Source of the DNA: Thiocapsa sp.
GTDB taxonomy: Bacteria; Pseudomonadota; Gammaproteobacteria; Chromatiales; Chromatiaceae
Direction: 5' to 3'
NCBI RefSeq assembly: GCF_011390875.1
Contig: NZ_JAABRP010000007.1
Span: 1-64,000, forward strand
DNA: 64,000 nt
The stretch's first letter is position 1. Each line of letters begins with the position of its first letter. Below, piece after piece: positions 30,377 through 59,436 of this stretch. The notes beneath the pieces were generated by a model that was given only the letters and a program-made list of their open reading frames with translations, was not told the DNA's origin and made no database searches. A program made the position numbers and the translations under genes.

Positions 30377-31798
30377 TCAGTGCGCCGTCTCCGCAGAACC
30401 TTCATCCGACCATTCCTTCAACTTTCGTTCCACGGTCTTTCGCGAAACGCCCAAGGCGCGTGCCGCGACCGTCTTGTTTCCGCCCGCCACGGCGAGAGCG
30501 TTCATGATGTGCGAGCGCTGCATGGCCTCCAGCGAGGAGTCCGGCGATCCGGCTGTGGACTCCTCTGCGGGATGCAGGGTCGATTCGCAGAGAAACTGAG
30601 CCACGGGGTTTCCGAGCAGCAAGGATCGCTCGATCACGTTGCGCAACTCTCGGCAATTGCCGGGCCAATCATAGCGGGTGAGTTGCTGCAGATCCCATGA
30701 CGTGAGCTCGGGTGTGGGAACACCCAACTCGGCGGACAGGACCTTGAGAAAATAACGGGCGAGGTGCTCGATGTCACCCTTGCGCTCGCGCAACGGCGGT
30801 AACTTCAGATCGACCACGTTGATGCGGTAGTAGAGATCCTTGCGGAAGCGGCCGGCGAGAACCTCCGCGGCCAGATCGCGATTGGTCGCCGTGATCACGC
30901 GTGCGTTGACCGGAATCTCTTGGCTACCGCCCACCGGACGATAACGCCGCTCCTCCAACACCCGCAGGAGCTTCGCCTGCAAGGCGAGTGGCATCTCGCC
31001 GATCTCGTCCAGGAAGAGGGTCCCGCCGTCGGCGTGACTGAAGAGACCGTTGCGCGCCTGATGCGCGCCTGTGAAGGCGCCTTTGAGATGTCCGAAGAGC
31101 TCGCCTTCGATCAGGTCGGCCGAGATGGCCCCGCAGTTGACCGGCACATAGCTCCCGCGCCGCCCGCTCAGATCGTGGAGCGCCCGTGCGACCAGTTCCT
31201 TGCCCGTGCCGGTCTCGCCCTTGATCAGCACCGTCGAGGGCATTGGGGCAATGCGGTGGATGGTGCGCCAAATGTCCTTCAACGACTCGCTTTCACCGAC
31301 GATACGCTTCGCGGATGGACGTTGCTCGAATTCGCGGTTCCGCAGAAACTGCTCGCGAGCCGCTCGCCGCCGATCCTGCGCGCGCTTGATGACCGCGAGC
31401 AGTTGCTCGGCGTGAAAGGGCTTGCGCAGCACGTCCGCGGAGGTGTCGCGCAGCGCATCGACTTCGTCGTAGACGTCCGAATAGCCGGTGATGAAGATCA
31501 CGTCCAGATCGACTTGGTAGCGATCGCGGATCTCGCGGGCTAGCTCCAGCCCGCTGGCCGCGCCCGGAAGACGAATATCCGCGATCATGAGATCGAAACG
31601 GGTCTTCCTGGCCAAGGCCCGAGCCTCGTCGGCGTCGGCGGCGGTCTCGACGTGGGCGAACTTGGATGCAAGCGTTCGCTCGATGAAGGTCCGCATTCCG
31701 GGCTCGTCGTCCAGAACCAGGATGGCCTCCACCGCATTCGGGGCGGATGGGACCTCTTCGACGCCTACATCACTGCGATCTGCAAAGGAAATCGACAT
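30377..31798 (-). CDS. Sigma-54-dependent response regulator (NtrC family)
   Basis: 473 aa. The N-terminal receiver (~25-145) has AILVLDDE, the phospho-acceptor in DLMIADIRLPG, and the lysine in LRKPF. The AAA+ domain (~165-390) has Walker A GETGTGKE, the sigma-54 contact GAFTGA and Walker B GGTLFLDEIGE. The C-terminal Fis-type helix-turn-helix is NKTVAARALGVSRKTVERKLKEW. It activates sigma-54 promoters once phosphorylated. Its likely kinase is the next gene (kinase-MoaB fusion). Candidate targets are the two -24/-12 promoters in this window; that link is inference. Confidence 0.95.
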   Translation of the reverse strand: MSISFADRSDVGVEEVPSAPNAVEAILVLDDEPGMRTFIERTLASKFAHVETAADADEARALARKTRFDLMIADIRLPGAASGLELAREIRDRYQVDLDVIFITGYSDVYDEVDALRDTSADVLRKPFHAEQLLAVIKRAQDRRRAAREQFLRNREFEQRPSAKRIVGESESLKDIWRTIHRIAPMPSTVLIKGETGTGKELVARALHDLSGRRGSYVPVNCGAISADLIEGELFGHLKGAFTGAHQARNGLFSHADGGTLFLDEIGEMPLALQAKLLRVLEERRYRPVGGSQEIPVNARVITATNRDLAAEVLAGRFRKDLYYRINVVDLKLPPLRERKGDIEHLARYFLKVLSAELGVPTPELTSWDLQQLTRYDWPGNCRELRNVIERSLLLGNPVAQFLCESTLHPAEESTAGSPDSSLEAMQRSHIMNALAVAGGNKTVAARALGVSRKTVERKLKEWSDEGSAETAH

Positions 31799-32245: not shown

Positions 32246-33094
32246 CTAGGCCGCGTCCAGCGCGAGCTCGCTTGTTTCACCGCTGTAGGCCCGCCGGAAG
32301 GCCTCGACGAAGGGGCGAAAATCCTTCACGGTTCCGTAGATCGCCACGACGCCTCCGCGTCTACGATCGTAGACGAGGTTGACGCCCTCCGTGCGTCCGG
32401 CGGGATTCGGTCGGGCCTTGCCGTCGTAATAGATCCAATGCCGCGCATGAACAGAAGCATAGACCAGATCTTCCTCGGCGTGAATCGACCAGAGAACGAC
32501 ATAGTTCCAACTGCCGATGCTGAGCTTGACCTTGCCTTGGCCCTCATGGGCATCGGGATCCTCCGGGTTGATTTGCCATTGAAAGACCGGCACAGGTCCA
32601 TTGTAGGTGGGATCGGCGTTGCCTTGAGGGCCGTCGACGATGGGCGGGTCGAAGGCATCCGGGATCTCGGAGGTCGGCGGCGTCGTCGGTGGCGGCTTGC
32701 GCTCCTTGCCCTCGCCGCCGGCCAGGAGGTCTTTGAGATGCGGCGCCCCGCCGTGGCTCGGATCGGGGATGGGGTCCAGGCCGTATTCCTTCAGATCCAC
32801 CTGGAGCGGATTCATCGAGGCACCGCCGAGCAGCATGGAGTCGTCGTCGTAGGGCGGCTCGGTATGGATCTCGATGGTCTCGAACCCGAGTCCCTGCAAC
32901 AGTGCACGGGTCTCGTTCTCCATGGCCGTGACCTTCTCGGCGTTGATCGAGTCCGGCGTGAATTCCACCTCGATGTTCGTCCCCTGAAGCGCGATACTCT
33001 TGACGAACCCGAGCGACACGACATCGCGTGATCGACCGGGAAAGCGGATTTGCCGCAGCAGCTCCTTCACCTCTTCGGGTTTTATCGGCGCCAT
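32246..33094 (-). CDS. MIP18/DUF59-like protein with extra C-terminal domain, paralog 2
   Basis: 282 aa from MAPIKPEEVKELLRQIRFPGRSRDVVSLGFVKSIA (ATG 33094, GAGGAGG 6 nt upstream). The first ~90 residues resemble the MIP18/DUF59 domain of Fe-S assembly factors. A low-complexity linker follows, then a C-terminal domain (~165-275) with VPVFQWQINPEDPDA, EGVNLVYDRRRGGVVAIYGTVKDFRPFVEAF. The same two-domain layout and those C-terminal motifs recur in the gene that overlaps nxrA. It has its own sigma-54-type promoter. Function unknown; a metal-centre or maturation role for the NXR enzyme is inferred. Confidence 0.85.
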   Translation of the reverse strand: MAPIKPEEVKELLRQIRFPGRSRDVVSLGFVKSIALQGTNIEVEFTPDSINAEKVTAMENETRALLQGLGFETIEIHTEPPYDDDSMLLGGASMNPLQVDLKEYGLDPIPDPSHGGAPHLKDLLAGGEGKERKPPPTTPPTSEIPDAFDPPIVDGPQGNADPTYNGPVPVFQWQINPEDPDAHEGQGKVKLSIGSWNYVVLWSIHAEEDLVYASVHARHWIYYDGKARPNPAGRTEGVNLVYDRRRGGVVAIYGTVKDFRPFVEAFRRAYSGETSELALDAA

Positions 33095-39862: not shown

Positions 39863-41230
39863 ATGGCAACCTCTAGCGCGGATGCACTTGCGAGCGGCGG
39901 GTCGGCCGCCGATTCTTATCTGGAAACCAAGCCCAGCCGCTGGATCACCAACTGGAACCCCGAGAACGAAGGGCAGTGGAATACGGTCGGAAAAAAGATC
40001 GCGCGTCGCAATCTGACCTGGTCCATGTTCGCCGAGTTTCTCGGCTTTGCGATGATGGGACTCTGGGGCATCGTCGTCCCGCAACTGCCCGCCGCGGGCT
40101 TCAACTTTACCGCGGACGAGCGCTTCTGGCTGATCGCCGCGCCGGGTCTCACCGGTGCCTTGATGCGGTTCCTCTACACCTTCACGGTCCCGATGGTCGG
40201 AGGGCGGAACTGGACCATCGCCTCAGCGTTGTTGCTGATGATCCCCGCGGCAGGACTTGCCTACGCAGTCAGCGATCCGACAACCCCTTTTTGGCTTCTG
40301 ATCATCATCGCGAGCTTGGCGGGCCTAGGGGCCGGTAATTTCACCTCGTCGATGGTCAACATCTCCTTCTTCTATCCGGAGAAGGTGAAGGGTGCCGCAC
40401 TCGGACTGAACGCATCCGGCGGCAATCTGGGTGTCGCTTGGGTTCAGTTCACGGTTCCGATCGTGATCATCACGGCCGGCGGCTTGGCGCTCGACCGTGC
40501 CGGTTTGATCTTCATCCCGCTCTGCATCATCGCGGCGATGGGCGCCTACTTCTACATGAACAACCTGACCTGCGCTCGGGCCGATATCAAGAGCTTCGGG
40601 CTGGCGCTCGCGGACAGAAACACCTTTATCATCTCGTGGCTCTATATCGGGACCTTCGGCTCCTATATCGGGTATGCGAATACCTTCGCGACGCTATTGC
40701 GCTCCGAGTTTCCCGAAGTTTCGATGAAAATCGTCTTCGTCGGCGCCTTGACGGGTGCATTGGTGCGACCGATCGGTGGATGGCTCGCCGACCGTTATGG
40801 CGGGGCACGGATGACGATGATCGTCTTCAGTTTGATGTGCGCGGGAAGTCTCGGGCTGGTGATGACCTTGGAGCAATTGAACTTCCCGCTGTTCTTCGGG
40901 CTCTTCATGCTGCTGTTTATTGCGGCAGGAATGGGCAACGGAACCGTTTATCGCATGATTCCGGCAGCGTTTCGAGCCACGGCTCTCGATCCGCAGACGG
41001 GCAGCCTCGATCCGACCAAGCTGGCCTCGGCACGCCGTCTGGCGGGTGGCTGTATCGGTGTCGCCGGGGCTATCGGCTCGCTCGGCGCCTTCTTTATTCC
41101 ACGCAGCTTTGCGATGTTCGGCATCGTCGGTGGTTTCACGCTTTTCCTCGGCTGCTATATCACGATGCTCTTCATGACGTGGTACTTCTATCTGCGCCGC
41201 AGCTCGCCCTTGTCGATCGCCAATGTCTAA
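39863..41230 (+). CDS. narK: NarK-family nitrate/nitrite transporter (MFS)
   Basis: 455 aa, twelve predicted helices. The nitrate-signature regions are visible: GLGAGNFTSSMVNISFFYPEKVKGAALGLNASGGNLGVAWVQ and GGARMTMIV...AAGMGNGTVYRMIPAAF. NarK proteins exchange nitrate and nitrite or co-transport them with protons across the inner membrane. Next to a cytoplasm-facing nitrite oxidoreductase it would import nitrite and export nitrate, which is inferred from context. GAGGAG precedes the ATG. The UspA genes follow at once. Confidence 0.95.
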   Translation: MATSSADALASGGSAADSYLETKPSRWITNWNPENEGQWNTVGKKIARRNLTWSMFAEFLGFAMMGLWGIVVPQLPAAGFNFTADERFWLIAAPGLTGALMRFLYTFTVPMVGGRNWTIASALLLMIPAAGLAYAVSDPTTPFWLLIIIASLAGLGAGNFTSSMVNISFFYPEKVKGAALGLNASGGNLGVAWVQFTVPIVIITAGGLALDRAGLIFIPLCIIAAMGAYFYMNNLTCARADIKSFGLALADRNTFIISWLYIGTFGSYIGYANTFATLLRSEFPEVSMKIVFVGALTGALVRPIGGWLADRYGGARMTMIVFSLMCAGSLGLVMTLEQLNFPLFFGLFMLLFIAAGMGNGTVYRMIPAAFRATALDPQTGSLDPTKLASARRLAGGCIGVAGAIGSLGAFFIPRSFAMFGIVGGFTLFLGCYITMLFMTWYFYLRRSSPLSIANV

Positions 41231-44828: not shown

Positions 44829-44942
44829 GAATGGCTCTGCGTACGAGCCCCTCAACCCGAGCAAAATGCTCGGAGACAACAGCAGAGACCGCAGCATCAA
44901 GACGCGCGGCCCTGACAACGGAGGATGAGGAGTGAAAAGAAC

Positions 44943-45809
44943 ATGATCAACGAGGAGTCGCAGCACGTGCGGGAGTTGCTCCGGGAGGTCAAGTATCCCG
45001 GCTTCTCGCGGGACATCGTTGCCTCGGGGTTTGTCGGGGACATCCTCGCCATCGGGCCGATGGTGGAAGTCGAGTTCAAGCCCGACACCCGCGACGAGAC
45101 CAAGGTGGCGACCATGGAGCGGCAGATTCGGGATGTGCTGCAACGCGCGGATTTTGCGGACGTGCAGATTCGTCGGATCGCGCCCTTCGTCCCGGATGTT
45201 CCGTTGCGCAGTGCCGAGGACCTCGCCAAGGAGCTTCGGAAGAAGCCCGAAGGCCCGAGCGCCGTGATGAGCCGGCTCATGACGCCGCTCCAGGCCGAGT
45301 ACCTCGAGGAGGGAGAGCTGCCGGAGCCGGATCTGCTCGCCATTGCGCTCGGTCGCCATGATGTCGCGCCCGCGGCCGGCTATCGGCCGGGCGGTCCGAA
45401 CCCGCTCAGCGGGCCGCGCGAATCCATCGACTACGACATCGGTATCCCCGTTCTGCAATGGGATATCGATCCGCACGACCCGCAAGCCAGGACCAGTCAA
45501 CACGAGATCAAGGTGGGCGATTGGGATTACCGCGTCTGGTGGCAGGCCCATCGCGACGGCGGGCTTCTCTATGTCTCCATGCAGGCGATGAAGGAGGACT
45601 GGGTCGACCACGACAACAATGCGGTCCCCCATCCGATCGGTCGATCCGAGGCGGTGAATCTCGTCTATGACGAGCGGCGCAACGCGGTGGTGGCCATCTA
45701 CGGCACGGTCCGTGACTTCCGCCCGTTTGTTAAGGCTTTCGGGCTGGCACATGCCAGCGAAACCGGTGCGCAAAGCGGATCGGAAACCCAAGAGGCAGAA
45801 CAGCAATGA
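44943..45809 (+). CDS. MIP18/DUF59-like protein translationally coupled to nxrA, paralog 1
   Basis: 288 aa from MINEESQHVRELLREVKYPGFSRDIVASGFVGDI (ATG 44943; ATG 44925 is the track start). The N-terminal ~85 residues look like a MIP18/DUF59 domain without obvious cysteines. After a variable middle comes the C-terminal domain IPVLQWDIDPHDPQA...EAVNLVYDERRNAVVAIYGTVRDFRPFVKAF, shared with the gene at 32246. Its TGA overlaps the nxrA ATG (ATGA). Likely a dedicated assembly factor for the Mo/Fe-S enzyme, by position and domain type. Not a recognised NXR gene to me. Confidence 0.87.
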   Translation: MINEESQHVRELLREVKYPGFSRDIVASGFVGDILAIGPMVEVEFKPDTRDETKVATMERQIRDVLQRADFADVQIRRIAPFVPDVPLRSAEDLAKELRKKPEGPSAVMSRLMTPLQAEYLEEGELPEPDLLAIALGRHDVAPAAGYRPGGPNPLSGPRESIDYDIGIPVLQWDIDPHDPQARTSQHEIKVGDWDYRVWWQAHRDGGLLYVSMQAMKEDWVDHDNNAVPHPIGRSEAVNLVYDERRNAVVAIYGTVRDFRPFVKAFGLAHASETGAQSGSETQEAEQQ

Positions 45810-48800
45810 GCAAGACCAAAGACGACGGCAACGGCAACGGTGGCTCCCGCTGGTTCCGCGAGCTCGACGAGCCGCGCAAATGGGAAGACTTCTATCGCCG
45901 CCGCTGGCAATACGACAAGTCGGTGCGCACGAGCCATAGCGTCAACTGCTCCGGCTCCTGCTCGTGGGAGGTCTTCGTCAAGAACGGCATGATCACCTGG
46001 GAGCTGCAGAAGACCGACTGGCCCCAGATCAACGACGAGACGCCGAACTACGAGCCGCGCGGCTGCCAGCGCGGGATCTCGGCGTCCTGGTATCCCTACA
46101 GCCCGGTCCGTCCGAAATATCCCTACGTCCGTGGTGTCCTGCTCGACTTTTGGAGGGCGGAGCGCGAAGCAGGCAAAGACCCGGTCGCCGCCTGGGCCGC
46201 CATCGTCGAAAATCCCGAGCGCTCCAAAGCCTATCGCAACGCCCGCGGCAAGGCCGGCTGGCGTCGCACGAGCTGGGACGAGGCGACCGAGATCATCGCC
46301 GCGGCCAAGGTCTACACCATCAAGGAGCACGGTGCCGACCACCTGGCCTCCTTCTCGCCGATCCCGGCCATGAGCATGGTGAGCTTCCTGTCCGGTCACC
46401 GCCTGTCGAACCTCCTCGGCGGGACCATGCTCAGCTTCTACGAGTGGTATCACGACCTGCCGCACATCATGCCGATGATCTGGGGCGACCAGACCGACGT
46501 GCATGAATCGGCCGACTGGTATCAGAGTGCCTATTGGATTGTGATGGGCTCGAACCTGCCGATGACCCGCACGGCGGATGCCCATTTTGCCTCCGAGCAC
46601 AAATACAACGGCGGCAAACTGGTTAATCTCTCGCCGGATTACTCCGATGTGACCAAGTTCGCAGACCTCTGGGTGCCTGTGCGCCCTGGAACGGACGCGG
46701 CTTTCATCCTCTCCTGTATTCACGTCATCCTGCAGGAGTTCCACGTCAATCGTCGCGCCGAGTACTTCCACGAGTATGTGGCGCAATACACCAATCTGCC
46801 CTTCCTGGTGATTCTGGACCAGGAGGGTGACCATTATGCGAGCGGCAGATTCCTGCGGGCGAGCGATCTCGCGGCCTATGCGAACGAAGAGCTGGCCGAT
46901 TGGAAGCTGCCTTGCTTCGACAAGCAGGGCGAGCTGCGTCTGCCGGGCGGGACGCTGGGCTTCCGCTGGGAGGAGAAGAACACCGGACGCTGGAATCTCA
47001 AAAACGAGGATGCGGTGACGGCCCAGCCGTTCGATCCGCTGCTCACACTCATGGACGGCGAGTTCGAGGAGGTCATTGTCGAGTACGCCGACTTCACGCA
47101 TACCTTCAACGTGGAGTTCGGCACCACGGCATTGCGGGGGGAGAAGGCCCAACTGAGCCTCAGAGGCGTCCCGAGCCGTGTGCTGACCAAGGCCGACGGC
47201 ACCAAGGTGCGTGTCGCGACGGCTTACGACCTCTTGTTGGCGCATTTCGGTGTCAATCGCGGTCTCTCGGGTCCCGGATACCCGAAAGACTATGACGACG
47301 CCACGCAGGCCTACACCCCGGCCTGGCAGGAGCAGGAGACCGGCGTGGATCGCAATCTCGCCATCCGTGTCGCTCGGGAATGGGCCGACACCGCGGAGAA
47401 GACGAAAGGCAAGTGCCTCTTCATCACCGGCTCGGGCATCCTGCACTGGTACCACGGCGGCTCGTTGACCTATCGCTCCGAGGCCGTCATGGGCATCCTG
47501 ACAGGTTGCCAAGGTCGCAACGGCGGCGGCTTTGCGCACTATGTCGGCACCGAGAAGATCCGCAATGTCGCCGCCATCGGGACGATCGGCAATGCGGTGG
47601 ATTGGGGCAATGTCGGGCGGCAGCAAAACTCCACATCCTACTTCTATTTCCATACGGATCAATGGCGCTACGACGGCATGAGCCTCGACCCCTTGTGGGC
47701 CCCGCGCGCCAAGGAGATGCCGGCGAAGGCCAACCATGCGGCCGATATGAACGCCGTTGCGGTCCGCAACGGTTGGCTGCCCTTCTTCCCGCAGTTCGAC
47801 GAGCGCAACCCGCTGGATGTCATGAAGGATGCGCGCAAGGCCGGCTGCGAGAGCCTCGAGGAGGTGAAGACCTGGGTCGCGCAGCAGTTCAAGGAGCGCA
47901 AGCTCAAGTTCGCGCTGCCGAATGTCGACGCCCCGAAGAACCATCCCAAGGTGCTCTGGATCTATCGCGGAAACCTCATCGGCACCAGCATGCGCGGCCA
48001 TGAGCTCAACCTCAAGCACATGCTGGGGACGCACCACAATGTGCTCGGCGGCGAGGGTCGCGCCAAGGACATGGTGAAGGAGATCGATTGGAGCGGCGAT
48101 GCCCCGCTCGGGAAGCTGGATCTCATCTACAACGTCAACCTGCGAATGGACTCCTCCGCCAACTATTCGGACATCGTGCTGCCGACGGCGCACTGGTACG
48201 AGAAGTTCGACCTCACCTGCACGGATCTGCATTCCTTTTTGCATCCATTCACGCCGGCACACGATCCGGCCTACGAGTCCAAGCACGACTGGGAGGCCTT
48301 CAGGCTGGTCGCCGAGAAGATCAGCGAGTTGGCCAAGACCCACCTGCCGGATCCGGTCGAAGACCTGGTCATGACGGCGCTCAACACGGACACCCGCGAC
48401 GAGCTGGCGCAGCCCATGGGCGAGCTGCGCGACTGGTGGACGGGGGAGAGCGAGCCGATCCCCGGCAAGACCTTCCCGAACGTCAGTGTCGTGAAGCGCG
48501 ACTACACCAAGATCCACGACATGTACACCACCCTGGGGCCGGCGGTCACCAAACCGAACGGATACGGTGCCAAGGGGATCCGCGGCGATCTCGCCGAGGC
48601 CTACGAGCAAATGAAGGAGAGTTATCTGGTCGGGGAGAAGGACGGTCGGCCGAACATGGAGACGGCGGCGAAGGTCTGCGAGGTGATCTTGCGCATCTCG
48701 CCCGAAAGCGACGGCGAGCTGTCCTATCAGATGTTCAAGAAACTCGAGGAGCGTTGCGGCGTGCCGCTCGCGCATATCGTCGAGCACGAGCGGGAGACCG

Positions 48801-49585
48801 CCTACCACTATCCCGACCTCATCTCTCAGCCGAGGCGGGCTTTGACCTCGCCGCATTGGTCCGCGATCGAGACGAAGGGTCGAACCTATTCGCCCTGGAC
48901 ATTGAACATCGAGGCACTCAAACCCTTCCACACGCTGACCGGACGACAGGAGATCTATTACGACCATCGCATGTTCCGCGATCTGGGCGAGGACTTCCCG
49001 GTCTATAAGCCGCCGGTAGACATGGTGTCGATCGGAGACGTGGCCCAGAAGGACATCGAGATGAAGGGGGCAAAGCTGTTCCGCTTCATCACGCCGCACC
49101 AGAAATGGGGCATTCACAGCATGTTCGGCGATTCATGGCAGATGCAGAACATGTTCCGCGGCGGGCCGACGGTCTGGATCAACGACGACGACGCGCGCGA
49201 TATCGGGGTCAAGGACAACGACTGGGTGGAGATCTTCAACGAGAACGGGATCCAGGTGGCCCGCGCTGTGGTGAGTCATACGGTGCCCCGCGATATGTCG
49301 ATCGTCTATCACCAGACCGAGCGTCATGTGAACGTGCCCTTCTCGTCGTTGGCCAGGGAGCGTGGTTCCAGCGATCTGCGCGGCGGCAACAACAACGCCA
49401 CCACCCGCATCATGATGAACCCCGCGACGATGGTGGGCGGTTATGCCAATTGGACCTATTGGCTCAATTACCAAGGGACCAGTCCGTCGGAGCGCGATTG
49501 TGTGGTGCTTATCCGCAAGAAACCGATGGAGTCGCGCGGTCGCAAGGTTATCTACCAAGAGTCACAGCTCAGCGTCGGGGCATAA
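45806..49585 (+). CDS. nxrA: Nitrite oxidoreductase / nitrate reductase alpha subunit (Mo-bisMGD)
   Basis: 1259 aa, NarG family of type II DMSO reductases. The N-terminal FS0 4Fe-4S motif uses histidine plus cysteines (HSVNCSGSCSWEVF ... RGCQRG). The Mo-ligand aspartate region is GDQTDVHESADWYQSAYWIVMGSN. Length matches NarG/NxrA (1210-1250). No twin-arginine leader is visible, so the subunit should face the cytoplasm, as in Nitrobacter/Nitrococcus-type NXR. NXR rather than NAR is favoured by the c-haem-fused partner and the organism type; sequence by eye cannot settle direction. Followed 3 nt later by nxrB. Confidence 0.9.
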   Translation: MSKTKDDGNGNGGSRWFRELDEPRKWEDFYRRRWQYDKSVRTSHSVNCSGSCSWEVFVKNGMITWELQKTDWPQINDETPNYEPRGCQRGISASWYPYSPVRPKYPYVRGVLLDFWRAEREAGKDPVAAWAAIVENPERSKAYRNARGKAGWRRTSWDEATEIIAAAKVYTIKEHGADHLASFSPIPAMSMVSFLSGHRLSNLLGGTMLSFYEWYHDLPHIMPMIWGDQTDVHESADWYQSAYWIVMGSNLPMTRTADAHFASEHKYNGGKLVNLSPDYSDVTKFADLWVPVRPGTDAAFILSCIHVILQEFHVNRRAEYFHEYVAQYTNLPFLVILDQEGDHYASGRFLRASDLAAYANEELADWKLPCFDKQGELRLPGGTLGFRWEEKNTGRWNLKNEDAVTAQPFDPLLTLMDGEFEEVIVEYADFTHTFNVEFGTTALRGEKAQLSLRGVPSRVLTKADGTKVRVATAYDLLLAHFGVNRGLSGPGYPKDYDDATQAYTPAWQEQETGVDRNLAIRVAREWADTAEKTKGKCLFITGSGILHWYHGGSLTYRSEAVMGILTGCQGRNGGGFAHYVGTEKIRNVAAIGTIGNAVDWGNVGRQQNSTSYFYFHTDQWRYDGMSLDPLWAPRAKEMPAKANHAADMNAVAVRNGWLPFFPQFDERNPLDVMKDARKAGCESLEEVKTWVAQQFKERKLKFALPNVDAPKNHPKVLWIYRGNLIGTSMRGHELNLKHMLGTHHNVLGGEGRAKDMVKEIDWSGDAPLGKLDLIYNVNLRMDSSANYSDIVLPTAHWYEKFDLTCTDLHSFLHPFTPAHDPAYESKHDWEAFRLVAEKISELAKTHLPDPVEDLVMTALNTDTRDELAQPMGELRDWWTGESEPIPGKTFPNVSVVKRDYTKIHDMYTTLGPAVTKPNGYGAKGIRGDLAEAYEQMKESYLVGEKDGRPNMETAAKVCEVILRISPESDGELSYQMFKKLEERCGVPLAHIVEHERETAYHYPDLISQPRRALTSPHWSAIETKGRTYSPWTLNIEALKPFHTLTGRQEIYYDHRMFRDLGEDFPVYKPPVDMVSIGDVAQKDIEMKGAKLFRFITPHQKWGIHSMFGDSWQMQNMFRGGPTVWINDDDARDIGVKDNDWVEIFNENGIQVARAVVSHTVPRDMSIVYHQTERHVNVPFSSLARERGSSDLRGGNNNATTRIMMNPATMVGGYANWTYWLNYQGTSPSERDCVVLIRKKPMESRGRKVIYQESQLSVGA

Positions 49586-49588
49586 ATC

Positions 49589-51136
49589 ATGCGTATCAAG
49601 CAACAGATGGGTATCGTCTTCAACCTGGATAAGTGTCTGGGTTGTCAAACCTGCACCATTGCGTGCAAGAACGTGTGGACCAACCGTGAAGGCGCGGAAT
49701 ACATGTTCTGGAACAACGTAGAGACCAAACCAGGCGCGGGCTATCCCAAGCAATGGGAGAACCAGGAGAAGTACCGCGGCGGTTGGAAGGAGGATCCGGG
49801 TGCGGACGCGCCCAAGCTGAATCAAGCCTCGCGGTTCTGGGAGATGATTAGTCTCTTCTACAACCCGGTCTTGCCCCAAATGGATGACTATTACGGCAAG
49901 GGGCCCTTTACCTTCACCTACGAGGATCTGCATTCGGAGCAGCCGACCAAGTATTCCCAACCGGTCGCACGCCCCAAGTCGCAGATCACGGGCGAAGAGG
50001 ACATCGAGCTGACCTACGGCGTGAATTGGGAGGACAACGGCGCCGGCACTCATGAAGAGGGCACGGGCAAGCTCGACTACAACTTCATGGATATGACGCC
50101 GGCGGCGCGGCAGGCGCTGCTGAAGTTCGAAAACTCCTTCATGATGTATCTGCCGCGCATCTGCAATCACTGCCTGAATCCCGCGTGTGTCGGTTCCTGC
50201 CCGTCGGGAGCGAACTACAAGCGCGAAGAGGACGGTGTGGTCCTGATCGATCAGGATCGTTGCCGGGGTTGGCGCTATTGCGTCTCGGGTTGCCCTTACA
50301 AGAAGACCTATTACAACTGGCGCACCGGTAAGTCGGAGAAATGCATCCTCTGCTTCCCGCGTCTCGAAACCGGCCAGCCGCCCATGTGCTTCCAGGCGTG
50401 CGTGGGTCGTATCCGCTATCTCGGTCCGCTGCTCTACGATTTGGACCGCGTCGCCGAGACGGCGAATGCCCCCGAGCACGAGCTGGTGGATCGGCATCGC
50501 GACATCATCTTGGACCCCTTCGATCCGGAGATCATTGCCGAGGCCAAGCGTCAAGGCATCTCGGACAACTGGCTGGAGGCATGCCGCCGCTCGCCGGTCT
50601 ACAAGATGGTGAAGGAATGGGAGATTGCACTGCCGCTGCATCCGGAGTTCCGTACGCTGCCGAGTCTCTTCTATATCCCGCCGGAGAGTCCCGTACAGAC
50701 GGCCAAACCGAATGACCGGGGCACGCTGGATATGGTGGACGGCGGCACGGTATTGCCGGATCTGAAGGAGTTCCGGATCCCGATCGAGTATCTGGCGCGT
50801 CTGCTGGCCGCCGGGAATACGAAGCTCGTGGAGACGGCCCTGCTGCGTCAGCTTGCGTTGCGTGAGTTCCGTCGGCTGGAGCGTGTGGAGGGTCGCACCG
50901 ACGATTCCGTCTTGAAGGCAGTGGGACTGACGATCGCACAAGCACGGCATATGCATCGCCTGCTTTCGCTCGCGCACTTCCACGAGCGGTTCGTCATCGC
51001 GACCTCGCGTACGGAGGACACGGACAACGCGCCCTATCTGGAACGCGGGTTCACCGGTTATGACCTGCTCGCGCCCGAGCAGAGTCCGAAGCGGCGCACG
51101 TCCTTCCACGGCAACAAGATGGGTGTGGGGAGCTGA
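49589..51136 (+). CDS. nxrB: Nitrite oxidoreductase / nitrate reductase beta subunit (Fe-S)
   Basis: 515 aa, NarH-type ferredoxin with four clusters: CLGCQTCTIACK, CNHCLNPACVGSCPSGA, CRGWRYCVSGCPYKK and EKCILC. The tryptophan in CRGWRYC replaces a cysteine, giving the 3Fe-4S centre expected of NarH/NxrB. The C-terminal ~100 residues match the NarH dimerisation/respiratory tail (ARHMHRLLSLAHFHERFVI). It carries electrons between NxrA and the membrane subunit. It ends 2 nt before nxrJ. Confidence 0.93.
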   Translation: MRIKQQMGIVFNLDKCLGCQTCTIACKNVWTNREGAEYMFWNNVETKPGAGYPKQWENQEKYRGGWKEDPGADAPKLNQASRFWEMISLFYNPVLPQMDDYYGKGPFTFTYEDLHSEQPTKYSQPVARPKSQITGEEDIELTYGVNWEDNGAGTHEEGTGKLDYNFMDMTPAARQALLKFENSFMMYLPRICNHCLNPACVGSCPSGANYKREEDGVVLIDQDRCRGWRYCVSGCPYKKTYYNWRTGKSEKCILCFPRLETGQPPMCFQACVGRIRYLGPLLYDLDRVAETANAPEHELVDRHRDIILDPFDPEIIAEAKRQGISDNWLEACRRSPVYKMVKEWEIALPLHPEFRTLPSLFYIPPESPVQTAKPNDRGTLDMVDGGTVLPDLKEFRIPIEYLARLLAAGNTKLVETALLRQLALREFRRLERVEGRTDDSVLKAVGLTIAQARHMHRLLSLAHFHERFVIATSRTEDTDNAPYLERGFTGYDLLAPEQSPKRRTSFHGNKMGVGS

Positions 51137-51138
51137 CC

Positions 51139-51888
51139 ATGAGTGCAATCCAATCGACCGAAGCCTTCGTATCGGGTCCGGGTTCGTCCGGACAGGTCTC
51201 GACGGGGTCGGCCGGCTGGGATCTCGGGGCCATGTACGGGTTGATCGCAGAGCTTCTGCTCAACCCGGCCGTTCGGGACGCCGGACGGGTGGAGCGTGAC
51301 CTCCAGGCCATCCCGGAGACGCCGATGCGCGAGTGCATCGAGCGATTCCTGGCATCCCCGGCCGCGCACAACGTCGATGAATACACTGCAACCCTGGAGC
51401 TGACGCCCCCCTGTCCGCTCTATCTGGGCGCGCACATGTACGAGGAGCCCAACTCGTGCCGGGGCGCCGGTGCCTGCGGGCGCAATCAATACATGATCGA
51501 GCTCAAGGCCACCTACGAACACTTCGGGTTCGACCTGGCCATTACCGAGCTGCCGGATTTTCTGCCGGTCATGATCGAGTTCCTGGCGGTGAGCAGCGCG
51601 CATCCGGAACGTGACGGTATCGGGCTGCGACGACGTTTCGTCGATCAGTACCTGCAGCCCGGCATCCCGGCGATGCGCAAGGCGCTGCAGAAATACGAGA
51701 GCGTCTACGACCTCCTGATGGAAGCACTTGAGTTTGTGGCAGAGGAGGACATGGAGCGTCTCGCCGACGATCCCGTCTGGCTTGCGCCGGAGGTTCAAGC
51801 GACGATCCCGGTGCGCAAGGGGACCTCCTCGACACCGGGCCTCTCGCCATCTCCTGATAACTCCACAGCCGGTTGGTACAGCCAATGA
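51139..51888 (+). CDS. nxrJ: NarJ/TorD-family assembly chaperone of the nxr operon
   Basis: 249 aa, all-helical. The TorD/NarJ pattern (LGAMYGLIAELLLNPAV, YLGAHMYEEPN, FGFDLAITELPDFLPVMIEFLAV) is clear. It would hold the alpha subunit during cofactor insertion and is not part of the final enzyme. Unusual is an insert with cysteines, CPLYLGAHMYEEPNSCRGAGACGRN, not typical of E. coli NarJ. The stop overlaps the next start (ATGA). Confidence 0.9.
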   Translation: MSAIQSTEAFVSGPGSSGQVSTGSAGWDLGAMYGLIAELLLNPAVRDAGRVERDLQAIPETPMRECIERFLASPAAHNVDEYTATLELTPPCPLYLGAHMYEEPNSCRGAGACGRNQYMIELKATYEHFGFDLAITELPDFLPVMIEFLAVSSAHPERDGIGLRRRFVDQYLQPGIPAMRKALQKYESVYDLLMEALEFVAEEDMERLADDPVWLAPEVQATIPVRKGTSSTPGLSPSPDNSTAGWYSQ

Positions 51889-53420
51889 GCAACTTTCTCT
51901 TTTCGAGTTACGTCATTTGGGGTGTCTTCCCCTATGTGGCACTGACGCTGTTCTTCGTCGTGCCCTTCATTCGCATGGTCTATCGGCCGTTCGGAATGTC
52001 GACGCGGGCCAGCGGCATCTTCGTGGGCCGCGATATCCTCGGACTTGCGGTTCACTTGCTGCACTGGGGTATCTTCCTGGTCTTCTTCGGTCATCTCGCC
52101 GGATTGATCGGCGGGATGCTGGGGTGGGGGAGCTGGGTCGGCGCCTTTTTCTGGATGGCCACGCTCGGCGGTTTGGTCGCCATTGTCGGGTCGGTGATGG
52201 CGCTGATCCGGCGGACACTGGTTCCCGAAATGCGTGCAATGAGCCAGCCCGATGATTACATCGTGCACTTCTTTCTCATCGCGATCCTGGGCGTCGCCAT
52301 CTATCAAGCGTTGGGGGATCGTATCTGGGGCGTTTCCTATACCGCAGCTCCCTGGTTTGCCAGTCTTTGGCGGCTCTCGCCCCAACCGGAACTGATGGCA
52401 TCGGCGCCGTTGTTGTCGAAAATCCATATCCTGCTTGCATTCGCCTTCGCGGCTTATTTCCCTTTCACGAAGTTGATCCATGCCTGGACGCTTCCGGTCA
52501 ATTATCTCGTGCGGCCCTATCAAGTCTTGCGCACGACAGCGAAGAAATTCCAGAACGGCTGGGTGTTGGGGTGTTGGGAATTCAAAGGCGTCACCGACAA
52601 ATCCTATATGACCTATTTGACCGCCGGCGTTGTCGGGGTCTTGGTTCTCATCGCCTTCGTGCTGCCCAGCCCCAAAGGAGATGGCCTGGTTCAAACCGCC
52701 CATGCCGCGATCACGACGGAGTCGAAGGGTCCGGACTCGAGTCAGGCGCAGGAGGTGCTCGAAGGCTATCCGCTCTATGTCAGCCAATGTGCCCGCTGTC
52801 ATGGACTGGAAGGTCAGGGTGACGGCCCCGGATCCAAATCGCCGACCTTTACCGCGCTTCCGAGAGATTTGACCGAGGGGCATTTCCAGTTCATCTCGAC
52901 ATCGAACGGTGTTGCGTCGAGCGAGGATCTTCGTCACGCCATCATTCATGGGCTCACCGGTTCGGGAATGCCGGGTTTCGCGGCGCTTTCCGATCGGCAA
53001 ATCGAATCGCTGGTGCAAACCGTCGAACACTTCTGGAAAGATCGCCCGACACCCGGCGAGCCCATCGCTGTTCCTGCGAGGCCGGCTCCCACAGTGGCGA
53101 TGATCAAGGAAGGCAAGGAGCTCTACTCCGGCATGTGCTCGGTCTGTCACGGACCGACCGGCGCCGGGGACGGCGTTCTGACGGCGCTCAGGACGGACGC
53201 GGCGGGTCGCCCCGTACCGACACGCAATCTGCGCACCGAGCCGCTCAAGGGTGGGTCGAGTGAAACGCAGCTCTACTACCGCATCGCCGCGGGACTGCCG
53301 AGAAACAAGGATGAATGGCTGATGCCCGCCTATGCAAACCTCGGCCCGGACAAGATCTGGTCGCTCATTACCTACCTGGAATCGGAGGTCTTTCCGCAAC
53401 GGCAGGTTGCCCGACGCTGA
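51885..53420 (+). CDS. NarI-like cytochrome b subunit fused to two cytochrome c domains
   Basis: 511 aa from MSNFLFSSYVIWGVFPYVALTLF (ATG 51885). Residues ~1-260 are a NarI-type five-helix protein with four candidate haem b histidines (GLAVHLLHWGIFLVFFGHLAG and KIHILLAFAFAAYFPFTKLIHAW). A sixth helix near 250 leads to two periplasmic c-type domains with CARCH (~305) and CSVCH (~420), with methionine ligands likely in SGMPGF and WLMPAY. Ordinary NarI has no c haem. The fusion gives a direct path from NxrAB via haem b to periplasmic cytochromes, so favours nitrite oxidation. Confidence 0.92.
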   Translation: MSNFLFSSYVIWGVFPYVALTLFFVVPFIRMVYRPFGMSTRASGIFVGRDILGLAVHLLHWGIFLVFFGHLAGLIGGMLGWGSWVGAFFWMATLGGLVAIVGSVMALIRRTLVPEMRAMSQPDDYIVHFFLIAILGVAIYQALGDRIWGVSYTAAPWFASLWRLSPQPELMASAPLLSKIHILLAFAFAAYFPFTKLIHAWTLPVNYLVRPYQVLRTTAKKFQNGWVLGCWEFKGVTDKSYMTYLTAGVVGVLVLIAFVLPSPKGDGLVQTAHAAITTESKGPDSSQAQEVLEGYPLYVSQCARCHGLEGQGDGPGSKSPTFTALPRDLTEGHFQFISTSNGVASSEDLRHAIIHGLTGSGMPGFAALSDRQIESLVQTVEHFWKDRPTPGEPIAVPARPAPTVAMIKEGKELYSGMCSVCHGPTGAGDGVLTALRTDAAGRPVPTRNLRTEPLKGGSSETQLYYRIAAGLPRNKDEWLMPAYANLGPDKIWSLITYLESEVFPQRQVARR

Positions 53421-53768: not shown

Positions 53769-54857
53769 ATGGGATCACCAACGCGCTCACAGACGGTCGC
53801 AACTGTGGCTCGATATTGGATCGAGAAGCTGCCGCCATCGTACTTTTCATTGGTGATGGCGACAGGGATCGTCTCCATCGCCTGTGATCTGGTCGGGCTC
53901 GACTGGATCGCCCATCCGCTTCTTTTCATCAACTTGATTGCTTTCGCCGCGCTTTTGTTTATGACCGGCCTTCGCGTGCTGGTCTATCCTACACACCTTG
54001 TCGATGATCTCAGGGCACATGCCTTAGGGCCGGGGTATTTTACGATCGTCGCCGGGACCTGCGTGATTGGGGTACAGATCTTCACGCTGACCGGCGACGC
54101 CGATCTTGCATTTGGATTGTGGGTGTTCGGCGCCTTTCTCTGGCTGCTGATTACCTACTCTTTCTTCACGGCGATCATCGTCCATCCGACCAAGCCCTCG
54201 TTGACGGACGGCATGAGCGGTGTCTGGCTCATTGCATCGGTTGCCACGCAATCCATTGCAGTACTCGGGACTATGGTTGCCTTTCGTTTTCCCGACGCTC
54301 AGCAGTTCATTCTCTTTATCAGCTTATTCTTCTATTTCATGGGCTGCATGCTTTATATCAATATCATCGCCCTGGTTTTCTATCGATTGACCTTCATGCA
54401 TCTGGAGCCGGCGAGCTTTACCCCGCCATACTGGGTCAGCATGGGGGCGACGGCGATCGCGACACAAGCCGGAGCGACACTGATTCTCCACGCGGAAGAA
54501 TCACAATTACTGGTCGAGCTGGTTCCTTTCCTCAAGGGTTTCACACTTTTCTTTTGGGCTGCGGGGACCTGGTGGATACCTCTCCTCATCGCCCTGGGGA
54601 TCTGGACGCATTGGCTCAGACGCGTGCCGATCGTCTACACGCCACTATTCTGGGGTGCGGTGTTTCCCTTGGGCATGTACACGGCGAGCACCGCGTTGTT
54701 GGCGAACGCACTACAAATCGACGGCCTGACCTGGATCCCGGCGATAACCGTCTACATTGCGCTCGCGGCTTGGGGACTGACCTTTCTCGGTCTTCTTAGG
54801 CGTTTGTTTCGAGCGATCGAGGCGGTGGTCAGAGTCGCGGTTTCCGCGGGCGATTAA
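53769..54857 (+). CDS. SLAC1/TehA-family anion channel-like protein
   Basis: 362 aa, ten predicted helices, with the family start WIEKLPPSYFSLVMATGIVSIACDL. TehA/SLAC1 proteins are anion channels; plant SLAC1 passes chloride and nitrate, and bacterial members are named for tellurite resistance or dicarboxylate/sulfite export. Beside an NXR it could let nitrate out or nitrite in, which is only a hypothesis. ATG 53769 used as in the track. It is 348 nt after the nxr operon and may have its own promoter. Confidence 0.87.
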   Translation: MGSPTRSQTVATVARYWIEKLPPSYFSLVMATGIVSIACDLVGLDWIAHPLLFINLIAFAALLFMTGLRVLVYPTHLVDDLRAHALGPGYFTIVAGTCVIGVQIFTLTGDADLAFGLWVFGAFLWLLITYSFFTAIIVHPTKPSLTDGMSGVWLIASVATQSIAVLGTMVAFRFPDAQQFILFISLFFYFMGCMLYINIIALVFYRLTFMHLEPASFTPPYWVSMGATAIATQAGATLILHAEESQLLVELVPFLKGFTLFFWAAGTWWIPLLIALGIWTHWLRRVPIVYTPLFWGAVFPLGMYTASTALLANALQIDGLTWIPAITVYIALAAWGLTFLGLLRRLFRAIEAVVRVAVSAGD

Positions 54858-56143: not shown

Positions 56144-56725
56144 ATGTCCGGTACGCAAGCCAATTGGAGGCAAGCCTTGAGCCTGATGGCTTACGTCCGA
56201 AAGATGCGCGGGACCACACGGGGAAGTCCGCCACGGGTCAGCAATCAGGAGGTCTTCTGGTCGTGGATCGGTGCATTCCTCGGGATCGGTCTGGTCGGTT
56301 GGGTCAATCAGGCGTTCTTCTCGGAGATCGACCTCACGCTCACGATCGGCTCGCTCGGTGCATCCGCGGTCCTGCTCTACGGGGCGGCTCGCAGCCCATT
56401 GGCTCAGCCCCGTAACCTAGTCGGCGGTCACGTCATCTCGGCGCTGGTCGGCGTCACCAGTTGGAAGCTGCTGTCCGCGGATCCCTGGCTTGCACAAGCA
56501 GTCGCGGTGGCCACTGCGATTGCGTTCATGCATCTAAGTAAGACCCTGCATCCGCCGGGGGGCGCAACCGCTCTGATTGCGGTGATCGGCTCGGAGGAGA
56601 TTCACGCGATGGGATATTACTACGTGCTGATTCCGGCGACCCTCGGGCCGCTGATCCTGCTGGCGGTGGCCCTTCTTGTGAACAACATCCCCGCGACACG
56701 TCGTTATCCGGAGAACTGGATATGA
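56144..56725 (+). CDS. HPP-family integral membrane protein (candidate nitrite transporter)
   Basis: 193 aa with four to five helices and the family signature HPPGGATALIAV, preceded by SPLAQPRNLVGGHVISALVGV. HPP proteins of cyanobacteria and chloroplasts have been shown to transport nitrite. ATG 56144 is the track start; TTG 56177, 6 nt after GGAGG, is a real alternative. It is the first gene of a unit with a cytochrome c (ATGA overlap) and a YgbA-type gene. The nearby NXR makes nitrite uptake a reasonable guess. Confidence 0.9.
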   Translation: MSGTQANWRQALSLMAYVRKMRGTTRGSPPRVSNQEVFWSWIGAFLGIGLVGWVNQAFFSEIDLTLTIGSLGASAVLLYGAARSPLAQPRNLVGGHVISALVGVTSWKLLSADPWLAQAVAVATAIAFMHLSKTLHPPGGATALIAVIGSEEIHAMGYYYVLIPATLGPLILLAVALLVNNIPATRRYPENWI

Positions 56726-57432
56726 GTCGACCCGTGTTGCGTGTTGCTGTAGGCATCGCCCTGGGCTGCCTGCTTGTTGCGCCTTTTGCGCTGGCCGAAG
56801 AGGCCGAGGATCCGTTCGCCGATGCGGACTTGGAAAACGCAGCTGAGATCAACGAGGTCTGTGCCGGCTGCCACGGCGAATATGGCCAAGGCGGAAAGGA
56901 CGGCGAATATCCACGCCTGGCAGGTCTCCCCGCCGCCTTCATCGCACGGCAGCTCGACCTGTTCAGGGCGCGCGAGCGCGAGAATCTCGCCATGGTGGAG
57001 CACACGGATCATCGGCAGATGCCGGATTCGGATATTCGCGATATCTCGGCCTTTCTCGCCGCGATCGAGCTGCCGAGTCGCCTCCCGCCGGTCGACGAGA
57101 CAGCGGCGGATTTCAACGCCTACGAGCGGCTGATGGCCACCAAACGGATCGTTCAGATCCCGCGCGCGGAGGGTGATGCGGTTGTCGGCGAGCGCATCTA
57201 CGACAAGGAGTGTGCCTCCTGCCACGGCCGCGACGGCCTGGGACGCGAGCGCGATGCCGTGCCCATGTTGGCCGGTCAGTACACCGGGTACATGCTGCGC
57301 CAGGTCGACAAATACATCGATAAGAGGCGTGTGCATGACCCGTCCGACCCGGATGCCGAGGAGTTGCTGGCGGCCTTCACCGCCGAAGAGCTGCGCGACA
57401 TCTTTGCCTACCTCTCGATCCTGGACGATTGA
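56722..57432 (+). CDS. Periplasmic di-haem cytochrome c (c4-like)
   Basis: 236 aa with a signal peptide (MSRPVLRVAVGIALGCLLVAPFALA) and two c-type domains, CAGCH (~48) and CASCH (~165). Likely methionine ligands are in DHRQMPDSDI and the later AVPML region. The two-domain layout is that of cytochrome c4/c553 proteins, which shuttle electrons to oxidases or reaction centres. It overlaps HPP by ATGA. It could accept electrons from the NarI-cytochrome subunit; that is inference from location. Confidence 0.9.
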   Translation: MSRPVLRVAVGIALGCLLVAPFALAEEAEDPFADADLENAAEINEVCAGCHGEYGQGGKDGEYPRLAGLPAAFIARQLDLFRARERENLAMVEHTDHRQMPDSDIRDISAFLAAIELPSRLPPVDETAADFNAYERLMATKRIVQIPRAEGDAVVGERIYDKECASCHGRDGLGRERDAVPMLAGQYTGYMLRQVDKYIDKRRVHDPSDPDAEELLAAFTAEELRDIFAYLSILDD

Positions 57433-57473
57433 TCGTCGAGGACCCGCTCTGCATCCGTATCCGAGGACGTCTT

Positions 57474-57854
57474 ATGCCGTTCGGCCGACGCATTACGCGC
57501 GAGAAAAAGACCATCACTGCCATGATGGCCATCTACTGCCGGGATCATCACCCAGGCTACGAGGAACTCTGCACCGAGTGCGTGTGCTTGCTCGAGTATG
57601 CGCATCGCCGCCTCGACACCTGTCCTTTCCAGGAAGAAAAACCGGCCTGCAATCTCTGCGAGGTGCACTGCTACAGCGCCCTGATGCGCGAGCGGGTGCG
57701 CGCTGTGATGCGCTATGCCGGCCCGCGCATGCTCTGGCCCCATCCGATCCTGAGTCTCGGGCACATCCTCGACAAGCTCCGTCCGGCGCCCCAGTTGAAG
57801 AAAACGAGACGTGCACAGACAGGCAAGGCCCGGTCGGACACGACGCCCGAGTGA
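57474..57854 (+). CDS. ygbA: YgbA-type 'nitrous oxide-stimulated promoter' family protein
   Basis: 126 aa from MPFGRRITREKKTITAMMAIYCRDHH (ATG 57474, GAGGA 6 nt upstream). Cysteine-rich: LCTECVCLLEYAHRRLDTCPFQEEKPACNLCEVHCY, then MRYAGPRMLWPHPILSLGHILD, the YgbA_NO pattern. E. coli ygbA is induced by nitric oxide through NsrR and aids recovery from NO stress; the molecular role is not settled. It lies 41 nt after the cytochrome gene in the same unit. Confidence 0.88.
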   Translation: MPFGRRITREKKTITAMMAIYCRDHHPGYEELCTECVCLLEYAHRRLDTCPFQEEKPACNLCEVHCYSALMRERVRAVMRYAGPRMLWPHPILSLGHILDKLRPAPQLKKTRRAQTGKARSDTTPE

Positions 57855-57860
57855 GCCGTG

Positions 57861-58028
57861 ACGATTCAAAAACAGAGTGAACACATGATGAGCGCTTAGG
57901 ATGGGTCGAGCGTCAGCGAAACCCATCCTCCCAACCGCCGCGTCGCCGGGTTTCGGTCCGACGCCCTTGGCGCACGCTGGATAGGTTTCGCTGACGCTCG
58001 ACCCGTCATCCTCGGTTGTGTTGAATCG
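57861..58028. repeat. Family-2 repeat element with outer inverted termini, copy 3
   Basis: The outer ACGATTCAAAAACA and TTGTGTTGAATCG enclose GGATGGGTCGAGCGTCAGCG...CGCTGACGCTCGACCCGTCATCC. It starts 6 nt after the ygbA stop. It separates the convergent ygbA and nnrS genes. Confidence 0.8.
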
Positions 58029-58055
58029 CACCCAAACGATGCCCCCGATGCCGCG

Positions 58056-59237
58056 TCAGCCCGGGCGCCCGTCCGGGCGGGGCGCGACCAGCATGGGTGC
58101 ATGCACCCAGAGGAAGAGCCCGAAGGCGAGGATCCAACAGAGCCCCGCGCTCATCAGCCAGGCGTGGTAGCCGGCCGGGTAGATCAGAGGTGCGAGACCG
58201 CGCAAGGCGGCCGCGCAGTTGATCAGGACGAAGGCGACGATCGTCAGACGAGCGGCCTGCATCGCCCGGCCGGTGTGGCCGACGGCGACCCGGGCCATCA
58301 TCCCGAGCGTCACGACCCCGATCGCCCCGATCGTCAGTGTGTGCAGTGCACCGCGGGCAGGTAGTGCGGTGAAAGCGGGGAGCCCGTCCAGGATCAGGCC
58401 AAGCGCGAGCCAGAGCAGACCCACATAGAGCACCGTCAACATAGGTGTCGTCCAGACACGTCGATCGTGCCAGCCGGCAATCCGCACCAGAAGCACTAGG
58501 CCCAAAGCGATCGCGAAGGCGCCCGACGGGGAGCCGTAGGGCTGGATGAGGTCGGCGATCAGAAGCGCTGCGGCGAGGAGGAAGGTCAGACGCTCGACGA
58601 ACTGAAAGCTGCGTGGCTTGGCGCCGGTGATTCCGCGCTCGATGAAGAAAGGCATCACCCGGCCCGAGACCAGCAGCATCGTCAGGATGACAAGGTCCAG
58701 CATCAGACGATGACCCCGTGCCGCCCCGCCCGGGAGGACGCCGAGCACATCGAGATGGACCAGCGCGCTCGCGAGCGTCATTCCTGCGAACAGCAGCAAG
58801 AAGACGCGGTTCACCGGATTGGGGCCGAACCAGAGCGGCCGTCGCAGCGCGAACGCCAGTACCGGGAAGAAGGCAACATCCGTCAGCGCGACCACCAAGG
58901 CCGGCAGCCCGAGCCACGGCATCAGACGTGCGGCCAACCAGAGCGCGACCAAGGCCGCGAGTGCCGTGCCGGTCGGCGTGTCCATGCCGCTCCAGTTGCG
59001 CACGGCCGTCAACAGGAACCCGGCGATGACGGCTGCCAGATAACCGAAAAGCATCTCGTGGGCGTGCCAGGCCGGCCCGGCCAAGTAGGCGGGCTGCGGG
59101 AAATGGCCCGTCAGCATTGCGAGCCAGATCAGAACGGACAGGACGGCGGCGATCCCCGCGGCCAGAAAGAAGGGCCGGAAGCCGAGCGCAAGGACGCTGA
59201 TCGGTCTCTTGGTCTTGGTGAGCGGGTCGACGCGCAT
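58056..59237 (-). CDS. nnrS: NnrS family membrane protein (NO stress)
   Basis: 393 aa from MRVDPLTKTKRPISVLALGFRPFFLAAGI (ATG 59237), about twelve helices. Family motifs are visible: GFRPFFLAA, GPAWHAHEMLFGYLAAVIAGFLLTAVRNW, SGRVMPFFIERGI, ALHTLTIGAIGVVTLGMMARVAVGHTGR. NnrS is a haem- and copper-containing protein that protects against nitric oxide and related nitrosative damage, usually under NnrR/NsrR control. A full FNR/Dnr-type box precedes it. The track's N-terminal extension is not used. Confidence 0.95.
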   Translation of the reverse strand: MRVDPLTKTKRPISVLALGFRPFFLAAGIAAVLSVLIWLAMLTGHFPQPAYLAGPAWHAHEMLFGYLAAVIAGFLLTAVRNWSGMDTPTGTALAALVALWLAARLMPWLGLPALVVALTDVAFFPVLAFALRRPLWFGPNPVNRVFLLLFAGMTLASALVHLDVLGVLPGGAARGHRLMLDLVILTMLLVSGRVMPFFIERGITGAKPRSFQFVERLTFLLAAALLIADLIQPYGSPSGAFAIALGLVLLVRIAGWHDRRVWTTPMLTVLYVGLLWLALGLILDGLPAFTALPARGALHTLTIGAIGVVTLGMMARVAVGHTGRAMQAARLTIVAFVLINCAAALRGLAPLIYPAGYHAWLMSAGLCWILAFGLFLWVHAPMLVAPRPDGRPG

Positions 59238-59436
59238 CTGGGTGGTTGTCCTTATCGGTGGTCGGCGCGAGCCCGATCGAGCGCTTGAGCGGGAGCGGCT
59301 TCCGGGAGTCGGAGTGTGGGGCGGATGGACGCGAGCCAAATCGCCCCGGTCGTCTCGCGCGAATATGGCCGAGCTTCGCGGGGTCGTGGCGCGCTGTCGC
59401 AACAATTTACCCTAGCGATGGCCTGTAGGTGCGTCC

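Follow-up and report, generated by a model that had tools for sequence, protein, structure and literature searches.

A NarI subunit fused to a dihaem cytochrome c as the probable membrane part of a cytochrome-linked nitrite oxidoreductase in phototrophic Chromatiales

In the purple sulfur bacterium Thiocapsa sp., a narGHJI operon ends with a gene for a NarI-type membrane subunit that carries two cytochrome c domains at its C-terminus. We consider it probable, at roughly 75%, that this fused NarI serves as membrane subunit of a nitrite oxidoreductase (NXR) that faces the cytoplasm, is linked to cytochromes and is of the type present in Thiocapsa sp. KS1. Such an enzyme would pass electrons to a periplasmic carrier and from there to the photosynthetic reaction centre. 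The analysed stretch, referred to as the window, comprises 64,000 nucleotides of contig NZ_JAABRP010000007.1 from a genome of 3.98 Mb in 390 contigs, and all coordinates below are positions in the window unless a contig is named.

The four nar genes lie on the forward strand in the order narGHJI. The narG/nxrA gene (45806-49585) encodes the catalytic molybdenum subunit of 1259 amino acids (TIGR01580, 1412 bits, cut-off 1084), narH/nxrB (49589-51136) the Fe-S subunit of 515 amino acids (TIGR01660, 656 bits, cut-off 524), and narJ/nxrJ (51139-51888) an assembly chaperone of 249 amino acids (PF02613; TIGR00684, 59.5 bits, cut-off 59.35). The start codon of narI/nxrI (51885-53420, 511 amino acids), ATG at 51885, overlaps the narJ stop codon TGA (51886-51888), and the narI stop is at 53420. 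All four genes were matched by curated models, narI with 95 bits being just short of the TIGR00351 threshold of 105.55. Aligned with E. coli NarG, the window NarG keeps both the molybdenum ligand aspartate in YxDLP and the HxxxCxxxC [4Fe-4S] motif, and NarH aligns over its full length with 1q16_B. No Tat-type export signal was found at the NarG N-terminus, MSKTKDDGNGNGG. The periplasmic NXR of Nitrospira and anammox bacteria, with an exported NxrA and an NxrC of the EB_dh type (ethylbenzene-dehydrogenase-type haem b), was not matched by this NarG/NarI-type enzyme; NarG gave only a weak local match to Kuenenia NxrA (7b04).

The N-terminal core of the fused NarI (residues 1-219 approximately; 51885-52541, +) has five helices and matches Pfam Nitrate_red_gam with an E value of 8e-45. 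When residues 8-217 are aligned with E. coli NarI (1q16 chain C), the haem b ligands H60, H70, H181 and H199 correspond to H56, H66, H187 and H205 of the E. coli protein. In an alignment of 14 fused rows, representing 13 genomes with the window gene entered twice, and 40 plain NarIs, these histidines are unchanged in every row (14/14 and 40/40); the four candidate haem b histidines noted by an earlier, sequence-only reading of this DNA were thereby upheld on careful alignment. The complex shares with E. coli NarGHI (1q16) the subunit plan, the molybdenum and Fe-S motifs and these four ligands, and differs from it in that the E. coli enzyme is without haem c, has the K86 quinol site and ends in the cytoplasm. 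Two extra histidines, H57 (52053-52055) and H128 (52266-52268), are invariant in the fused NarIs and absent from these positions in the plain ones.

Hydropathy and loop charge identified an added sixth transmembrane helix at about residues 242-262 (52608-52670, +). It is followed by cytochrome c domain 1 (residues 292-388; 52758-53048, +), with CARCH at 302-306 and M362 as candidate axial ligand, and by cytochrome c domain 2 (residues 400-505; 53082-53399, +), with CSVCH at 418-422 and M480 as candidate axial ligand. Pfam detects both stretches (Cytochrome_CBB3, 5e-19; Cytochrom_C, 6e-16), and the sequence-only reading, which had proposed a NarI with two cytochrome c domains at exactly this location, was accurate on both counts. 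The tail is predicted to be periplasmic because the C-terminus of E. coli NarI is cytoplasmic and the fused protein has one further helix. The lysine and arginine counts of the loops agree, with 3, 3 and 6 in the predicted cytoplasmic loops and 0, 0 and 2 in the predicted periplasmic ones. Attachment of c-type haem must occur in the periplasm. By the predicted topology the CxxCH domains are thus on the periplasmic side, as had been suggested together with the extra helix, and nothing placed them in the cytoplasm. Across 11 homologues no variation was seen in either CxxCH motif or in M362 and M480, the candidate sixth ligands, and the tail is on these grounds a candidate for binding covalent haem c with His/Met ligation. 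An AlphaFold model of the fused NarI built from an 11-row alignment was too poor for haem placement (mean pLDDT 45, pTM 0.32).

A dihaem cytochrome of Kuenenia (6h5l chain B) matches the tail over 215 residues (E 4e-25), and the same two-domain dihaem module occurs in EB_dh-type proteins and in cbb3 oxidase fusions (FixO/COX1); it is therefore a widely used electron-exchange module. In these three cases the partners are others than NarI, the module being periplasmic or joined to other enzymes.

The core itself departs from ordinary NarI in the loop around K86 of the E. coli protein, a quinol-site residue for which an alanine mutant structure exists (1y5i; 1y5n with pentachlorophenol). The equivalent position is phenylalanine in 14/14 fused rows (F88 in the window), whereas among the plain NarIs it is lysine, histidine or arginine in 37 of 40 and tyrosine in the other 3. 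The loop that bears this position is 7 residues shorter in the fused NarIs than in the plain ones, and the otherwise invariant Pro73 is replaced by glycine. A count made independently of alignment columns gave the same picture: every plain NarI has at least one histidine, lysine or arginine in the quinol-loop segment, and all fused NarIs bar one have none. The basic residue at the K86 position, a mark of quinol-oxidising NarGHI, is absent from the fused NarIs, and the quinol site looks lost, an argument that depends on a single residue and a single loop. The membrane subunit had been described as a quinol-type subunit joined to its electron acceptor in one chain. The single chain stands; the functional label 'quinol-type' is probably wrong, since the quinol site is apparently lost. 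We found no description of this change in the literature searched.

The sequence-only reading had proposed a search for the same fusion in other genomes, and within the order every one of the 13 genomes with this narG clade proved to have the fusion (including L050, L137 and the window). Ten named relatives, belonging to Thiocapsa, Thiocystis, Thiorhodococcus and Halochromatium or being MAGs, contain the full fusion, and in 10/10 of them the cassette has the identical order orf44925-narG-narH-narJ-narI-tdt. The window NarI is 91% identical to that of Thiocapsa sp. KS1 and 90% identical to that of T. roseopersicina DSM 217. The fused narI is under purifying selection (dN/dS about 0.04-0.18); its tail evolves faster than the core and is still under purifying selection (0.07-0.13). 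Retained in 13 genomes under such selection, the fusion is therefore neither a chance event nor an assembly artefact. A search for a wider fusion family gave no further full-length match in 369 genomes of the class, in 399 of the phylum searched with a profile, or in 72,556 plasmids. The literature searched, which did not include the genome paper on KS1 by Hemp et al. (2016), yielded no description of a NarI-cytochrome fusion.

The NarG partners form an equally compact group. They are 84-96% identical to each other and about 51% or less identical to NarG proteins outside the group. In a 46-row NarG tree they form a single clade with an SH-aLRT support of 100, which contains KS1 NxrA and lies apart from the usual NarG proteins of other Chromatiaceae. 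Among the sets searched, Thermus has the closest narG outside the clade, with about 50% identity; Thermus NarG is the sister of the fused clade in the tree, a position for which the program gave a long-branch warning. Exactly one narG above the family cut-off, of the fused-clade type, is present in each of KS1, L004, L005 and L010. KS1 is an accepted phototrophic nitrite oxidiser whose NXR is regarded as a distinct cytoplasmic type (PMC6050957) and is related to E. coli-type nitrate reductases (PMC8387239); its phototrophic growth on nitrite has been published, according to a later paper that cites it (Schott et al., 2010, cited in PMC8767323). The KS1 NXR has the same operon as the window, with the fused NarI 91%, NarG 96% and NarH 98% identical, and no meaningful difference was seen save for a molybdo-oxidoreductase gene after tdt that is missing in the window. 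The fused NarI of the window is thus not a one-off; the same protein occurs in KS1, so it belongs to a known type. By its NarG clade the window enzyme would be a KS1-type NXR, with a putative role in nitrite oxidation feeding photosynthesis; among these relatives nitrite oxidation is proven for KS1 alone. The extra KS1 genes (L003:10907-13237), encoding the molybdo-oxidoreductase of 776 amino acids and a Urate_ox_N membrane protein, lie between tdt and a CBS gene, and both are missing from the window and from L137.

The fused NarI follows phototrophy closely. NarG is encoded in 38 of 210 genomes of the order, 13 with the fused and 25 with the plain type, and a photosynthetic reaction centre was found in 13/13 fused-type genomes (one of them a MAG holding a mere fragment) versus 0/25 plain-narG genomes. 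Since a reaction centre is present in 78/210 genomes, most phototrophs of the order are without any NarG. The tetrahaem cytochrome of the reaction centre and HiPIP are encoded in all 13 fused-type genomes. The fused and plain types occur in seven genera each, with no overlap, and the link is confounded by shared ancestry, which may be its cause. We did not find this link described in the literature searched. A separate protein of 1068 amino acids (G000:C332:4162-5753; L139:758-4407, -) combines a PF02276 tetrahaem cytochrome domain of the reaction-centre type, a long coiled-coil-like stretch with repeats and an OmpA domain at the C-terminus, a make-up suggestive of a cytochrome anchored towards the outer wall. 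Its gene adjoins that of a second HiPIP, outside the puf genes, and was found only in the four cassette-bearing Thiocapsa among the 13 genomes searched.

The nitrite couple lies at about +430 mV and ubiquinone at about +100 mV. Nitrite is thus not easily able to reduce ubiquinone, and an exit through haem c at the outer side would avoid this problem. In the preferred scheme, NarG would oxidise nitrite at molybdenum on the cytoplasmic side, and electrons would be relayed by the NarG and NarH Fe-S clusters to the haem b pair of NarI and across the membrane. They would then reach the two haems c of the periplasmic tail, no quinone being involved, and the tail would reduce a soluble carrier, either HiPIP or a cytochrome c, which would in turn supply the reaction-centre tetrahaem cytochrome. 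Outward movement of electrons from the nitrite couple would be aided by the membrane potential, which is negative inside. The departure of electrons to cytochromes instead of the quinone pool, as predicted from sequence earlier, is supported at this level by the remodelled quinol loop, the KS1 orthology and the occurrence in phototrophs only.

Sequence does not reveal in which direction a NarG-type enzyme works. Electrons could also flow inward, from a reduced cytochrome c or HiPIP through the tail and the haems b to NarG, making the complex a nitrate reductase fed from the periplasm that disposes of excess electrons for redox balancing. NarG-type enzymes are reversible, the N. hamburgensis NXR reducing nitrate in vitro (PMC12300631), the couple near +430 mV sits above c-type carriers, and the nearest outside relative, that of Thermus, is a nitrate reductase. 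We nevertheless regard this reversal as unlikely, as inward flow would oppose the membrane potential, KS1 grows by nitrite oxidation without any other narG, and the association with the photosystem is strict.

The arrangement is not unprecedented, because in Thermus the same parts exist as two proteins, NarI and NarC. There NarI binds a periplasmic dihaem NarC that is able to pass electrons to periplasmic acceptors, and the same route has been proposed for Nitrobacter, where a homologue of NarI would hand electrons to a homologue of NarC in the periplasm (PMC7694296). The Thermus thermophilus NarC-NarGHI complex resembles the window system in that its NarI works with a bound dihaem cytochrome c and its narG is the nearest outside relative. 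It differs in being a nitrate reductase with no fusion, NarC being encoded by a separate gene at the 5' end and having a C-terminal anchor. The gene upstream of the window narG does not encode a cytochrome, and a separate dihaem NarC gene of the Thermus type is absent there. Thermus NarC and the tail are 26% identical over 132 residues, a weak homology that does not support a simple fusion of a Thermus-like NarI and NarC. The NXRs of Nitrobacter, Nitrococcus and Nitrolancea, compared by description only, are likewise of the cytoplasm-facing NarG type with this proposed transfer to a NarC homologue, and differ in having a separate cytochrome gene and in belonging to a different nitrate-reductase clade (PMC6050957).

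The Thermus system suggests a further reading, in which NarI stands in for cytochrome bc1, oxidising quinol and feeding periplasmic acceptors by way of the haem c tail. With complex III repressed, Thermus lacking NarC fails to grow on nitrite or NO (PMC7694296), and the N-oxide genes NnrS and YgbA lie near the window operon; we still think this improbable, given that the quinol-site loop is remodelled in all fused and in no plain NarIs and that such a bypass offers no reason for the link to phototrophy. Least probable of all is a mainly structural or assembly role of the haem c tail, in membrane attachment and NarG maturation with no electron transport, which is favoured by the soluble, immature NarG of NarC-less Thermus mutants (PMC7694296) and opposed by the invariance of both CxxCH motifs and both candidate methionines, by the purifying selection on the tail and by a quinol loop that would then be lost without an alternative exit.

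Under the preferred reading of an outward, cytochrome-linked nitrite oxidoreductase, the fused NarI might mark a quinone-independent, photosystem-linked nitrite oxidase in purple sulfur bacteria of seven or more genera, among them Thiocapsa, Thiocystis, Thiorhodococcus and Halochromatium, a generalisation to which we give even odds. If it is true, phototrophic nitrite oxidation would be far commoner than the few known strains suggest, and a lost quinol site together with an added dihaem tail would be its signature. This signature points to several cultured purple sulfur bacteria as candidates for light-driven nitrite oxidation, and could let annotators separate such nitrite oxidases from nitrate reductases, a distinction that gene names fail to make. 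The complex would also offer a testable structural case of a NarG-type enzyme turned to nitrite oxidation by swapping its membrane exit from quinone to cytochrome c.

Several neighbouring genes fit nitrite traffic, with putative assignments. A NarK/NarU-family nitrate/nitrite transporter (39863-41230, +; NF011608, 297 bits, and TIGR00886, 250 bits, both below the cut-offs) is encoded about 4.6 kb upstream of narG. The conserved last gene of the cassette, tdt (53769-54857, +; PF03595, E 1e-43), encodes a TDT/SLAC1-family anion channel, a possible nitrite/nitrate channel, and lies 3' of narI in 10/10 named relatives and also in L137 and L138. Further downstream are genes for an HPP-family membrane protein (56144-56725, +; PF04982, E 2e-60), presumably a nitrite-transporter candidate from the function of its family, and for a soluble dihaem cytochrome c (56722-57432, +; PF00034 in two stretches, E 3.5e-17), both also present in L003, L004 and L137. 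The soluble cytochrome, a candidate electron partner, is found near this operon in Thiocapsa only. Together with YgbA_NO and NnrS these two genes make up an N-oxide/nitrosative-stress cluster (56144-59405) that is kept in Thiocapsa relatives.

The first gene of the cassette (44925-45809, +; 294 amino acids) overlaps narG with its 3' end and shows a weak N-terminal match to FeS_assembly_P (E 0.0017, under the Pfam cut-off). A homologue with 68-96% identity lies immediately 5' of narG in 10/10 named relatives; full-length copies are confined to cassette genomes among the 185 genomes of the order sampled, and none was found in the plasmid collection. A paralogue with 36-41% identity and a better FeS_assembly_P match is encoded at 32249-33082 (-), and in nearly every cassette genome the two genes share a contig. 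The two proteins possibly have a role in the assembly of Fe-S or molybdenum enzymes. Finally, a single open reading frame at 28779-30236 (-), which may represent a fusion, a frameshift or a sensor linked to molybdenum, combines HisKA and HATPase_c with MoCF_biosynth and adjoins a gene for a sigma-54 response regulator (30377-31798).
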